The position numbers and the translations under genes were made by a program. From Ruminococcus sp. (GTDB lineage Bacteria > Bacillota > Clostridia > Oscillospirales > Ruminococcaceae), in contig JAFUXL010000007.1 of assembly GCA_017470905.1 (NCBI GenBank), positions 1-64,000 of the forward strand: a stretch of DNA of 64,000 nucleotides, in the 5' to 3' direction. The notes beneath the pieces were generated by a model. It searched no databases and was not told the origin of the DNA. It saw nothing but the letters and a program-made list of their open reading frames with translations. Each line of letters begins with the position of its first letter. Position 1 is the stretch's first letter. Shown here one piece after another: positions 4,409-61,876 of this stretch.

Positions 4409-4497
4409 ATATAAAAATTTTTTCGCATTATTTAAAAATGCTCATTTAAGAATAAATAAATATCTTCTTCATATAATGTACTGAAAGGAGTGCGTTT

Positions 4498-4965
4498 ATG
4501 AAGAAGATAAAATGGACGGAACTGATTATATCAATTGTTTCGGCGGAGCTTGTCGGGGCATTGTCGGCATTGATTTCGGGCGGCTACAGCGAATATTATG
4601 CAAGCCTTGTCCAGCCGCCCCTTGCGCCGCCCCCGATGGTATTCCCCGTGGTATGGGCAATACTCTATGCAGTAATGGGATTTTCCGCATATCTTGTGTA
4701 TTTTTCCGAAAGTCCGCACAGAAAAAATGCCCTTGTGATATATATTGCCCAGCTTGTGATAAATTTTTCATGGAGTATAATATTTTTCCGTTTTAAAGCA
4801 CTTATGCTTGCGGCGGCATGGGCTGTACTGCTCGCCATAGCCGTGGCTGCCATGGTGATAATATTCAGAAAGGTGAATAAGCTTGCATCGCTGGTTAATA
4901 TACCCTATCTGCTGTGGAGTATATTCGCTGCTTACCTTGCCGCAGGAATTTATCTGCTTAATTAG
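4498..4965 (+). CDS. tspO: TspO/MBR (tryptophan-rich sensory) family protein
   Basis: Five-segment membrane protein of 155 aa. The family hallmarks are present: SLVQPPLAPPPMVFPVVWAI near residues 35-55 (the PP...FxxVW motif), then WSIIFF, a short fourth helix and a final helix. Bacterial TspO proteins bind porphyrins and have been tied to tetrapyrrole and stress control; no role here can be inferred from neighbours. GAAAGGAG is 9 nt upstream of the ATG. Monocistronic by layout: the hairpin before it and the terminator at 4966 isolate it. Confidence 0.88.
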   Translation: MKKIKWTELIISIVSAELVGALSALISGGYSEYYASLVQPPLAPPPMVFPVVWAILYAVMGFSAYLVYFSESPHRKNALVIYIAQLVINFSWSIIFFRFKALMLAAAWAVLLAIAVAAMVIIFRKVNKLASLVNIPYLLWSIFAAYLAAGIYLLN

Positions 4966-58103: not shown

Positions 58104-58835
58104 ATGTCAGGTCATTCAAAATGGAATAATATCAAACGCAAAAAAGAAGCTACCGATGCGGTAAAGGGTAAAATTTTTACTAAAATCGGCAGGGAAATTA
58201 CCGTTGTCGTAAGAGAGGGAGGCCCCGACCCGAATAACAACAGCAAGCTCCGTGACCTTATCGCGAAGGCAAAGGCTAACAACGTTCCCAATGACAATAT
58301 CGAAAGAGTTATCAAGAAAGCCGCAGGCGGCGAGGATAAGAACAATTACGAGAATATCACCTATGAGGGATACGGTCCCAACGGTGTTGCCGTTATCGTT
58401 GAGTGCCTTACCGACAACAGAAACAGAACCGCAGGCGATGTCCGCCACTATTTCGACAAATTCGGCGGAAACCTCGGCACTATCGGATGTGTATCGTTCA
58501 TGTTCACGAGAAAGGGCATTGTTATCCTTGAAAATACGGGTCTTGACGAGGATAAAGTCATGGAAGATGTATTCGAGTGCGGCGGCGATGATTTTGATGT
58601 AAACGAGGAAACTGTTGAAATCGAATGCACTCCCGAAAATGTTCACGCTCTCCGTGAGGGACTTACGGAAAAGGGCTATAATGTAATCTCCGCAGAGGTA
58701 GAGCAGATACCCTCGAATTATACAAGTCTCACGGACGAAGACCAGATAAAGAAAATGAACCTCCTCCTCGAACACCTTGAGGATAATGACGATGTTCAGA
58801 ACGTTTATCACAACTGGGAGATGCCCGAAGAATGA
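58104..58835 (+). CDS. YebC/PmpR family transcriptional regulator
   Basis: 243 aa. SGHSKWNNIKRKKEATDAVK is the family N-terminus; AAGGEDKNNYENITYEGYGP and NRTAGDVRHYFDKFGGNLG follow. YebC proteins bind DNA as regulators in some species and have more recently been linked to relief of ribosome stalling at proline runs. GGAGGAAG 5 nt before the ATG. Ends in an ATGA overlap with the GNAT gene. Confidence 0.94.
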   Translation: MSGHSKWNNIKRKKEATDAVKGKIFTKIGREITVVVREGGPDPNNNSKLRDLIAKAKANNVPNDNIERVIKKAAGGEDKNNYENITYEGYGPNGVAVIVECLTDNRNRTAGDVRHYFDKFGGNLGTIGCVSFMFTRKGIVILENTGLDEDKVMEDVFECGGDDFDVNEETVEIECTPENVHALREGLTEKGYNVISAEVEQIPSNYTSLTDEDQIKKMNLLLEHLEDNDDVQNVYHNWEMPEE

Positions 58836-59329
58836 TTAACATTAAGAACGTAAAATATTATCCCGAACTGCGCAAAGTCGCAGAGCTTGCGGACGAGATA
58901 TGGCATGAGTGCTTTGTGGATATAATAAGTCCGGGACAGATAGACTATATGGTAGAGAAATTCCAGTCCCTCGGCGCAATGACAAATCAGATTGAAAATC
59001 AGAGTTATTTATATTTTGCCGTTTGTGATGATGAGGATTTATGCGGATATATCGCCGTAAAGCCCGAAGAGGACGACAGATTTTTCCTGAGCAAGCTCTA
59101 TCTGCGCAGTGATAAAAGAGGGCGGGGAATTGCCTCCCTCATGATGAATTACGTTTTTGACACGGCGAGAAAGGCTGGCAAGAAATCCGTTTATCTCACG
59201 GTCAACAAGTACAACAGCCACGCAGTCGAGGTATATAAAAAAATCGGTTACAAGCTTATTGATTCCGTTGTCACGGATATTGGCGGCGGATATGTAATGG
59301 ACGACTATATTTTTTCGTATGCTCTGTAA
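58832..59329 (+). CDS. GNAT family N-acetyltransferase
   Basis: 165 aa. Acetyl-CoA site LYLRSDKRGRGIASLMMNYV (the R-x-x-G-x-G/A P-loop) near residues 90-110, followed by VYLTVNKYNSHAVEVYKKIGY. Substrate unknown. ATG overlaps the YebC stop (ATGA), so it is translationally coupled. Confidence 0.88.
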   Translation: MINIKNVKYYPELRKVAELADEIWHECFVDIISPGQIDYMVEKFQSLGAMTNQIENQSYLYFAVCDDEDLCGYIAVKPEEDDRFFLSKLYLRSDKRGRGIASLMMNYVFDTARKAGKKSVYLTVNKYNSHAVEVYKKIGYKLIDSVVTDIGGGYVMDDYIFSYAL

Positions 59330-59336
59330 TATGAAG

Positions 59337-59409
59337 AAAGCTCCGTAAATATACTCATAATAGGAACCTTAAAAGGAGGAATATAATGAGTATAACGGAG
59401 CTTTTTTTT
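59337..59409 (+). terminator. Terminator-like hairpin overlapping the mntP start
   Basis: AAAGCTCCGT (59337-59346) pairs perfectly with ACGGAGCTTT (59395-59404). Inside it TATACTCAT (59350-59358) pairs perfectly with ATGAGTATA (59386-59394). Eight Ts end at 59409. The loop holds the AAGGAGGA ribosome site, and the mntP start codon is in the right arm. Confidence 0.8.
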
Positions 59410-59937
59410 CTTGCGGCGGGACTTGCCGCCGATGCGTTTTCGGTGTCGGTTTGCAGAGGACTTGGAATGAAACGCATAAATTTGCGGAAGGCGGCTGTCA
59501 CTGCGCTTTATTTCGGGTCATTTCAGTTTATGATGCCTGTTGCCGGGTATTTTTTCGGCGGAATGTTCGGAAAATATATAAATCCCTTCAGCCACTGGGC
59601 GGCATTTATTCTGCTGGGCTTTATCGGCGGCAAAATGATTTTTGAGGCTTTCGGCGAAAGAGAAGAGAACAGCGGCACGGAATTATTTATCCTTGCGATA
59701 GCGACAAGTATTGACGCTTTTGCAGTCGGGATAGTTTTTGCGGCTCAGAAAACCGAACTCATGCGCTCTGCATCCGTGATAGGGATGGTTACTTTTACTA
59801 TATCATTTATCGGCGTGTCACTCGGAAATCATCTGGGTAACAAATACGAAAAAAAGGCTGAAATTGCAGGCGGAGCGGTGCTTATATTAATTGGTCTTAA
59901 ACTCCTGCTTGAAGGGCTGGGGGTTATTGATTTTTAG
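59386..59937 (+). CDS. mntP: Manganese efflux pump MntP
   Basis: 183 aa, six transmembrane helices. SITELFFLAAGLAADAFSVS begins helix 1 with the conserved Asp; helix 4 has IATSIDAFAVGIVFA with the second Asp. MntP exports Mn2+ and is commonly controlled at the RNA level by manganese. AAGGAGGA lies 5 nt before the ATG, within a hairpin that spans the start. The 3' end overlaps ligA by 14 nt (convergent). Confidence 0.93.
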   Translation: MSITELFFLAAGLAADAFSVSVCRGLGMKRINLRKAAVTALYFGSFQFMMPVAGYFFGGMFGKYINPFSHWAAFILLGFIGGKMIFEAFGEREENSGTELFILAIATSIDAFAVGIVFAAQKTELMRSASVIGMVTFTISFIGVSLGNHLGNKYEKKAEIAGGAVLILIGLKLLLEGLGVIDF

Positions 59938-61876
59938 ATAATTCCTGAAAATCCTCCTCCGTGAGAATGGGGATATTCAGCTCCTTTGCCTTTTTGTTCT
60001 TTGAAGAATTTGAAGCCGAGTCGTTGTTTATAAGATAATCCGTCTTTGAAGATACTGCGGAGGCGCATTTTCCGCCGTTCGCCTCGATGAAGTTTTTCAG
60101 CTCATTGCGGTTTTTCCAGATATGGACAGAACCGGTTATAACGAAAGTCTTTCCCGATATGGGAGAATCCGAGGGAATGTTTTCGGGGGGGAGTATATTT
60201 AATTCTTTTATCAGATTATGATATTCGTTCAGATTTTCCTCATCGGAAAAATATTTTACATATTCAGCCGCAAGGACTTCGCCAATTCCGTCAATGGCGG
60301 TAAGCTGCGGTATATCAACCGTTTCAAGGCTTTCCGCAGACGGATATTCCGCACAGATAAGCCTTGATGCAGACCTGCCGATATTCGGTATTCCGAGGGA
60401 GTAAAGCACACGGCTTAATTCGGTATTCCTCGAATTTTCGACAGCCTCGTGCATTTTTTCGTATGACCTCTTTCCGAAACCGTCTATCGAAATTATCTTG
60501 TCTCTGTAATCTTCAAGGTGATAGAAGTCTCTGAACTCTTTGACAAAGCCCTCAGAAACGAGCGTTTCAATTGTGGCGGTTGACATACCGATTATATTCA
60601 TTGCATCACGCTGTACGAAATGCTCAAACTTTCCGATATGCTTTGCAGGACACTCCTTATTTATGCATACAATTGTCTGTATACCGTCATCGGAGGTTTT
60701 AATTTCGGCTTTTCCGCCGCACACGGGGCATTTATCGGGTATGGGGAGAGTATCGGAACAGCTTTTATTTTCGAGTATCTGCGGTATTATCATATTCGCC
60801 TTGAAAATCGAGAGGGTATCGCCTATGCCGAGTTTAAACTGTCTGACTATGCTGAGATTATGGACGGAGGCTCTTGAAACGGTTGTTCCCTCAAGCTCAA
60901 CGGGGTCAAACACTGCGATAGGATTTAAAAGCCCGGTTCTGCTTGCCGACCATTCAACTTCACAGAGGGTAGTGTCTGCTGTTTCGTCACGCCACTTGAA
61001 AGCAATAGCATTTCTCGGTGCATGGGAGGTCTGTCCGAGACTTGCTCCGTAGCTTACATCGTCAAATATCAGCACAAGACCGTCCGAGGGGAATTCGTTT
61101 TCGGGGATATTTTTTTCAAATTCTGCGACAGTATCGGCTATGCCGTTTTTATCGGTTTTCACTCCGTAAACGGTCTGAAAGCCGATATTTTTAAGCCATT
61201 CAAGGCGGTTTGCGAAAGAGTTTTCTTCATAGCCCTCCGCACTTACAAGATTGAAGGCAAAGAAATTTATATTCCTCTCCGCAGTGATTTTAGAGTCGAG
61301 ATTTCTCACCGTGCCGACGCATAGATTTCTGGGATTTTTATACTTTGCGCCCTCATCGGTTTCGGAATTTACACGGTTAAAATCCCTGTATTTCATAAGG
61401 GACTCACCACGGATAACCAGTCTGCCGCCGAACGGGATTTTTGCAGGAATACCCCGTATATGCCTTGCGTTCTGCGTTATATCTTCGCCCGTTTCGCCGT
61501 TTCCACGGGTAACAGCCTGAATAAGAACACCGTTTTCGTAGGTCAGTACGAGGGTAAGACCGTCAAGCTTCCAGCTTATAAATGCCGTATTATCGCCGAG
61601 CCAGTCCTTTAATTCGTCAACGCTTTTTGTCTTTTCGAGGGAGAGCATTTTCGATTCGTGCTTAATCTTTTTGAGCGAAGATGCAACCTCATAGCCGACT
61701 TTCTGCGTGCGGCTGCCGCCGAGAATAATGCCCGTTTCTTTTTCGATTGAGACAAGCTCATCGTAGAGCCTGTCGTATTCATTATCGGACATTTTTTCGA
61801 CACCCGTATTATAATAGGCATCTGCGGCGGCGGCGAGTATCTCGTTAAGCTCGTTCATTCTTTTAATCTTATCCAT
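59924..61876 (-). CDS. ligA: NAD-dependent DNA ligase LigA
   Basis: 650 aa. Ia domain at the N-terminus; the adenylated lysine is Lys103 in SWKLDGLTLVLTYE; GETGEDITQNARHIRGIP is a conserved nucleotidyltransferase block. The Zn finger is CPVCGG...CINKECPAKH, then HhH domains and a C-terminal BRCT domain (GKTFVITGSVHIWKNRNEL). It seals nicks with NAD+. AAAGAGGTG ribosome site; promoter at 61907. Confidence 0.96.
   Translation of the reverse strand: MDKIKRMNELNEILAAAADAYYNTGVEKMSDNEYDRLYDELVSIEKETGIILGGSRTQKVGYEVASSLKKIKHESKMLSLEKTKSVDELKDWLGDNTAFISWKLDGLTLVLTYENGVLIQAVTRGNGETGEDITQNARHIRGIPAKIPFGGRLVIRGESLMKYRDFNRVNSETDEGAKYKNPRNLCVGTVRNLDSKITAERNINFFAFNLVSAEGYEENSFANRLEWLKNIGFQTVYGVKTDKNGIADTVAEFEKNIPENEFPSDGLVLIFDDVSYGASLGQTSHAPRNAIAFKWRDETADTTLCEVEWSASRTGLLNPIAVFDPVELEGTTVSRASVHNLSIVRQFKLGIGDTLSIFKANMIIPQILENKSCSDTLPIPDKCPVCGGKAEIKTSDDGIQTIVCINKECPAKHIGKFEHFVQRDAMNIIGMSTATIETLVSEGFVKEFRDFYHLEDYRDKIISIDGFGKRSYEKMHEAVENSRNTELSRVLYSLGIPNIGRSASRLICAEYPSAESLETVDIPQLTAIDGIGEVLAAEYVKYFSDEENLNEYHNLIKELNILPPENIPSDSPISGKTFVITGSVHIWKNRNELKNFIEANGGKCASAVSSKTDYLINNDSASNSSKNKKAKELNIPILTEEDFQELSKNQ

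Follow-up and report, generated by a model that had tools for sequence, protein, structure and literature searches.

A hairpin at the start of Ruminococcus mntP may insulate the gene from upstream read-through

Introduction

In fold-back inhibition of the IS10 transposase, transcripts from outside hide the ribosome site, whereas transcripts from the transposase's own promoter do not. At sigG of Bacillus subtilis, a hairpin of 20+ bp has been proposed to block translation of spoIIG read-through RNA, and the sigG promoter lies between the arms, so that RNA from this promoter cannot form the hairpin (PMC5942855). A third kind of control is found at manganese exporters of other bacteria, including mntP, which are regulated by the yybP-ykoY manganese riboswitch (RF00080).

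Here, we describe a hairpin around the start of mntP, which encodes a putative manganese efflux pump, in a 64,000-nucleotide stretch of Ruminococcus sp. contig JAFUXL010000007.1 (the window). The sigG hairpin is the closest known system: like it, the mntP element would be a large hairpin directed against upstream read-through with a promoter, putative at mntP, between its arms. The mntP element differs from the sigG kind by what it adds, a right arm made of the start codon and first codons and a T tract behind it. With IS10 the element has in common that read-through hides the ribosome site, but mntP is not a mobile element and a T tract is present. Like an intrinsic terminator, it has a stable stem followed by eight Ts; it differs from one in spanning a promoter-like pair and the start of the next gene, and in its 27-nt loop region with small helices. 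Our literature search, which covered titles, the beginnings of abstracts and open papers, found no report of such an element at mntP. We consider it moderately probable that the hairpin is a read-through insulator around an internal, probably sporulation-type promoter.

Results and Discussion

The locus

The features of the locus are collected in Table 1. Although the mntP product matches its Pfam family, it scores 101 bits against the MntP equivalog model, under the cut-off of 214, and it matches YtaF weakly (47.1 bits, cut-off 149.6). GNAT and mntP are codirectional, with 56 nt between the GNAT stop and the mntP ATG. The 3' end of mntP overlaps by 14 nt (59924-59937) a convergent 650-aa ORF at 59924-61876, which we take from its sequence to be a DNA ligase.

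Table 1. Features at the mntP locus, in window coordinates
Feature	Position	Strand	Basis or remark
YebC/TACO1 family gene	58104..58835	+	PF01709, PF20772; overlaps GNAT gene by 4 nt
GNAT acetyltransferase gene, upstream of mntP	58832..59329	+	PF00583; stop TAA at 59327-59329
-35-like TAATATG, putative promoter part	59327..59333	+	overlaps GNAT stop codon; conserved spacing
Left arm, outer helix (AAAGCTCCGT)	59337..59346	+	pairs with 59395-59404; predicted fold and comparison with relatives
Bulge AAA, 3 nt	59347..59349	+	identical in all three group A loci
-10-like AATATACT, putative promoter part	59348..59355	+	overlaps left arm; matrix score and spacing
Left arm, inner helix (TATACTCAT)	59350..59358	+	pairs with ATGAGTATA at 59386-59394
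Expected start of mntP's own RNA	59361..59363	+	derived from the -10-like element
Shine-Dalgarno GGAGG	59375..59379	+	inside weak apical helix of the hairpin (predicted)
mntP, putative manganese efflux pump	59386..59937	+	PF02659, 154.1 bits
Right arm, inner helix (ATGAGTATA)	59386..59394	+	start codon and codons 2-3 of mntP
Right arm, outer helix	59395..59404	+	mntP codons 4-7
T tract, 8 Ts	59402..59409	+	within mntP codons 6-8

The hairpin and the hidden start codon

The hairpin consists of 10 + 9 bp with a 3-nt bulge. RNAfold gives it -32.4 kcal/mol with a z-score of -7.17, which none of 200 shuffles equalled, and the segment 59330-59409 alone, corresponding to an RNA that ends at the T tract, folds with a z-score of -9.5. 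The arms, the bulge, the eight Ts and the 56-nt gap all lie where the initial annotation of this DNA had placed them, and RNAfold predicts the perfect 10-bp and 9-bp stem parts and the paired start codon that it had described. The annotation had also put the ribosome site in the loop. The Shine-Dalgarno sequence is indeed apical, but it is predicted to belong to a weak apical helix formed by CCTT 59367-59370 and GAGG 59376-59379 rather than to a plain loop.

Opening the region from -16 to +6 of the mntP start is calculated to cost 16.4 kcal/mol, the second highest value among the 53 gene starts in the window; the median for gene starts of the same genome is 6.0 kcal/mol. When the 74 upstream bases were shuffled and the mntP side was kept, the start was equally hidden in 2 of 1000 shuffles. 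A simple rule applied to about 445 kb of the genome called 363 gene starts; six of them reach the opening energy of mntP, and 0.8 are expected from shuffles. These calculations indicate that the hairpin around the mntP start is real. That chance alone is expected to yield about 0.8 such starts among the 363 leaves some room for an inverted repeat that has no function. However, the repeat is kept in all three genomes of its clade, at 76-88% MntP identity, with folds that beat 200 of 200 shuffles, and we find a chance origin highly improbable.

As in an intrinsic terminator, a stable stem is followed directly by a U tract. The loop is not short: 27 nt, with weak helices inside, lie between the inner arms (59359-59385). 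This apical region is long for an intrinsic terminator and counts against the insulator. A consensus terminator scan does not list the hairpin because its rule allows only loops of 3-8 nt, and loop-limited scans can miss such elements generally. The suggestion in the initial annotation that the hairpin might end the upstream transcript is consistent with what we see, a terminator-like hairpin that overlaps the start of mntP.

Conservation in relatives

An mntP match was present in 110 of the 125 genomes of the genus that we surveyed, and three of these 110 (G515, G035, G476) were left out; with L028 and L031 from other genera added to the 107 loci from the genus, 109 mntP loci were available. 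Reading their upstream regions, we found the same hairpin besides the window only in L094 (88% MntP identity), whose place and identity equal those of a contig named Ruminococcus sp. UBA4383, and in L003 (76%). These two and the window, hereafter group A, form one clade with support of 100/99 in an 86-locus tree built from GNAT and the first 50 MntP residues. One mntP copy was found in each group A genome. A DNA search with the start region in 396 genomes of the family, at E up to 10, gave near-chance matches only.

The structure is conserved across group A. The fold z-scores are -6.5 for L094 and -5.8 for L003, and each of the three folds is better than 200 of 200 shuffles. In the alignment 95.6% of 90 cells are paired, and sliding the arms by 1-3 columns lowers this to 45.6-53.3%. 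Of 30 pairs, two changed on both sides (C-G to U-A, A-U to G-C), four changed on one side and three have a broken cell; one inner pair is broken in L003. The initial annotation looked to compensatory changes in close relatives as a check on the hairpin, and both nearest relatives keep it with two such changes, although with only three sequences, and 65 of 500 shuffles scoring as high, the covariation of group A is not significant by itself and not proven. The T tract accompanies the hairpin: within the first 36 nt of mntP the longest T run is 8, 7 and 7 in group A and never exceeds 5 in the remaining 106 loci, so that a run of at least 7 occurs in 3 of 109 loci, exactly those with this hairpin.

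A hairpin of different build lies between GNAT and mntP in 15 species that form a separate clade (100/99), hereafter group B. Its right arm usually holds the Shine-Dalgarno sequence, and in 12 of the 15 loci six or seven consecutive Ts stand in the final 20 nt ahead of the mntP start. Across 16 aligned loci, which include L029 from outside the 15 core loci, 93.7% of cells are paired, a figure that none of 500 shuffles reached but that is favoured by the derivation of the structure from the consensus of the same sequences; with the arms slid, 42.5-68.1% are paired. Thirteen cells changed on both sides, which 1 of 500 shuffles matched (mean 6.4). These compensatory changes bear on the possibility that the arms are a DNA palindrome, either a protein-binding site, for example for a metal regulator, or a cruciform. 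The inverted repeat does overlap a promoter-like region, but the group B arms change with compensation between species, unlike a fixed operator, and only on the coding strand is the right arm followed by the T tract. We give such a palindrome very little credence.

Two broader statements are not part of our argument. We do not claim a single origin of the group A and group B hairpins, which belong to separate clades. We also considered a promoter-spanning hairpin at mntP throughout the genus and rejected it: loci with a TTGAC-type promoter mostly do not have the layout (duplex z-scores of -1.7 to +0.9 in 15 scored loci of 17, with L007 and L014 left out), although 4 of 10 pass by opening energy.

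A promoter-like pair inside the hairpin

The left arm overlaps a promoter-like pair, TAATATG-N14-AATATACT in the window, and it does so in both clades A and B. Upstream of mntP the pair GTAATA-N18-TATA[ACG]T is present at spacing 18 in 24 of 109 loci, and over spacings of 10-26 it otherwise occurs only at 23 (two loci) and 25 (two loci). The 24 loci are the three of group A, the 15 of group B, five termed group E, and L102. In the window GTAATA starts one base before the GNAT stop, so part of the first element is stop-codon context; three group E loci (L017, L126, L132) keep this element though GNAT was not found just upstream. We regard a promoter inside the hairpin as likely.

Which sigma factor would read it? 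In the form TAATATN-N14-AATATANT, the pair is similar to sites before spoIIIAA of the genus, such as TAATATT-N14-AATATGAT, whose general form is TAATATT-N14-AATATKAT. spoIIIAA depends on sigma E. We built a matrix from these sites (matches in 55 of 60 genomes searched, 30 loci fetched, 23 used for training); it is narrow, since all its training sites come from orthologues of a single gene. As background we scored 361 other gene starts from the window's own genome, which put the 95th percentile at 9.2 and the 99th at 13.2; the three group A loci score 10.7, above the former and below the latter. Group B scores 18.0 in 15 of 15 loci and group E 13.6-14.5 in 5 of 5, although two of the latter, L141 and L143, have their best site elsewhere. 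The window agrees with the sigma E promoter form in its 16-nt spacing, and its -10 has an A in first place, like the majority of the genus's spoIIIAA promoters. The distance from ATA to the -10 equals that of the Clostridioides difficile spoIIID promoter, which under sigma E reads ATA-N16-CATATATA with a -10 of the CATA type; in the same organism the sigma E genes repressed by SpoIIID include the spoIIIA operon (PMC3789822). Expression of YtaF is confined to sporulation and is reported to be under sigma E in Clostridium perfringens (PMC9332280).

Other searches were less telling. The best canonical sigma A site for mntP of the window is weak (score 8; 3/6 + 5/6 matches). Neither of two further yardstick genes provided a usable promoter: 3 of 30 spoIID loci exceed the 95th percentile, and 1 of 29 scored spoIVA loci (30 fetched) reaches 11 or more. 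In the window's own genome, a pattern for promoters of this form matched at 16 places and its backward control at 9; as 12 of the 16 gave no gene under the start rule, the comparison is uninformative. The genome encodes a SigE-like protein at 348.1 bits, 0.5 under the family cut-off of 348.6, and a SpoIVA over its cut-off, which makes the organism a probable spore former. The promoter is probably of the mother-cell sigma E type, but this is a lead and the weakest step of our reading. In three other loci (L018, L131, L139) a TTGAC-type sigma A promoter upstream of mntP shares its place with a site to which the spoIIIAA matrix gives 15.7-16.1, the two overlapping, and two sigma factors may possibly act there at one place.

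The promoter-like pair also bears on a simpler reading, in which the hairpin is a fixed attenuator or plain intrinsic terminator of a yebC-GNAT-mntP operon that has no internal promoter, and mntP is expressed at a low level from read-through. The stem with its eight Ts, the close codirectional spacing of GNAT and mntP, the listing of no other terminator-like site between them on the same strand and the only moderate score of the window pair all suit this reading. Nevertheless, a terminator has no need to hide a start codon, the spacing of the pair is conserved across clades, and clear promoters lie between GNAT and mntP in group D and at numerous further loci of the genus. We regard a plain terminator as rather unlikely.

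Read-through RNA and the gene's own RNA

How would mntP fare in the two kinds of RNA? We modelled its own RNA as starting about 7 nt after the -10, and hence without the left arm. RNA from 59361 has no significant fold (z-score -0.54). Opening the start is calculated to cost 16.4, 15.5 and 14.2 kcal/mol in read-through RNA of the three group A loci and 6.6, 4.3 and 4.0 kcal/mol in their own RNA; the means over groups A and B are 15.6 and 5.7 kcal/mol. One locus of group B, L024, shows a reversal (3.2 read-through, 8.9 own), and its Shine-Dalgarno sequence lies past the T tract. This calculated difference between the two RNAs is firm within the folding model, and at mntP the inverted repeat is predicted to hide ribosome site and start only in the RNA derived from upstream. 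Counting a start as hidden when at most 5 of 100 shuffles are as high, we find it so in all three group A loci, in 14 of the 15 in group B and in 4 of the 10 in group D, but in none of the five group E loci, where the promoter-like pair thus occurs without a start-hiding hairpin.

Based on these calculations, the hairpin probably keeps mntP silent in RNA that runs in from the upstream genes. RNA polymerase leaving yebC and GNAT would copy both arms, the hairpin would form at the U tract, and much of the read-through RNA, which we infer to occur, would end within mntP codons 6-8. Any RNA that passed the terminator would have its Shine-Dalgarno sequence and AUG buried. If the gene's own promoter works and is read by sigma E, as we infer, RNA would begin near 59361 without the left arm and be translated freely. 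Because such RNA never contains the hairpin, no opening step is needed.

The arrangement may reflect a lack of space. At spoIIIAA an ordinary terminator lies just ahead of the -35 in at least half of 30 loci, as judged by eye. At mntP the -35-like element overlaps the GNAT stop, so no terminator would fit ahead of it, and the place left would be around the promoter. The -10 begins within the 3-nt bulge, which would account for the break in pairing between the arms. If the insulator reading is correct, it shows a way to protect a gene from an operon packed tightly upstream where no terminator fits before the gene's promoter: the terminator folds around the promoter, and the gene's own first codons serve as its second half. 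In these gut bacteria mntP would then be linked to sporulation and not to metal sensing. As a single MntP was found per group A genome, a promoter used only in sporulation would deprive growing cells of MntP, leaky read-through aside.

Metal control and riboswitch-like leaders

The initial annotation had proposed a switch instead: an initiating ribosome would break the nascent stem and prevent termination, possibly under metal control. The presence of Shine-Dalgarno sequence, AUG and T tract within one hairpin and the identity of the exporter as a putative manganese pump speak for such a switch, as does the riboswitch-like leader, recognised by motif match, that 26 of 109 related mntP loci have instead. 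Initiation would nevertheless have to beat a very stable stem, given the 16.4 kcal/mol at the buried start, and the promoter-like element in the left arm would bypass the switch by giving mntP an RNA of its own that does not hold the hairpin. In line with the annotation, which saw no room for the yybP-ykoY aptamer, neither this riboswitch nor any other Rfam family matched between 57900 and 60300 at E up to 1. Nothing found at the site points to metal sensing, and a switch set by initiation or by metal is not supported. Overall, we judge the initiation switch improbable.

The leaders in the 26 loci (e.g. L012, L019, L107) lie between GNAT and mntP and consist of conserved GGGAGTAGTTAGC ... AATGAGACTCATGTA followed by a terminator. 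By eye they look like a diverged yybP-ykoY riboswitch. In Rfam the leader reaches at most 28 bits (in G487, under the cut-off), and RF00080 was not listed in eight of these loci at E up to 0.1. RF00080 has no match in the window's own genome under strict filters, and 125 genomes of the genus gave two weak matches, none over the cut-off.

Other start-codon hairpins

A second start-codon hairpin of the window lies at 4461-4509, at a tspO-like gene (4498-4965; 80.1 bits against the NCBIfam TspO model, under the cut-off of 180). The first codons pair with 4461-4473, a left arm that overlaps CATATAAT. The opening energy of 23.8 kcal/mol ranks first among the 53 gene starts. A tspO match was present in 97 of 125 genomes searched, and in the 30 loci sampled the start is hidden beyond what 5 of 100 shuffles reach in 13, by arms that differ greatly in sequence between loci. 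On the spoIIIAA matrix, 23 of the 30 exceed the 95th and 9 the 99th percentile. tspO belongs to the C. difficile sigma E regulon (PMC3789822). These hairpins mean that the layout is not unique to mntP. We tentatively raise the possibility that Ruminococcus insulates closely packed sporulation genes by hairpins wrapped around sigma E promoters, with the ribosome site or first codons as right arm and often with a terminator, that this layout arose more than once (mntP in clades A and B, tspO), and that the one MntP found in clade A is a metal pump of the mother cell.

Two further starts carry hairpins of other kinds. At the mntP start of L023, on the reverse strand of that locus, CTGCGGTCAT pairs with ATGACCGCAG and no long T run follows. 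On the minus strand of the window's own genome (L191:4031; C3:24031), a 122-aa gene has the promoter TTGACA-N17-TATAAT, and its promoter region pairs with early codons; opening this start is calculated to cost 14.2 kcal/mol, a value as high in 0 of 60 shuffles.
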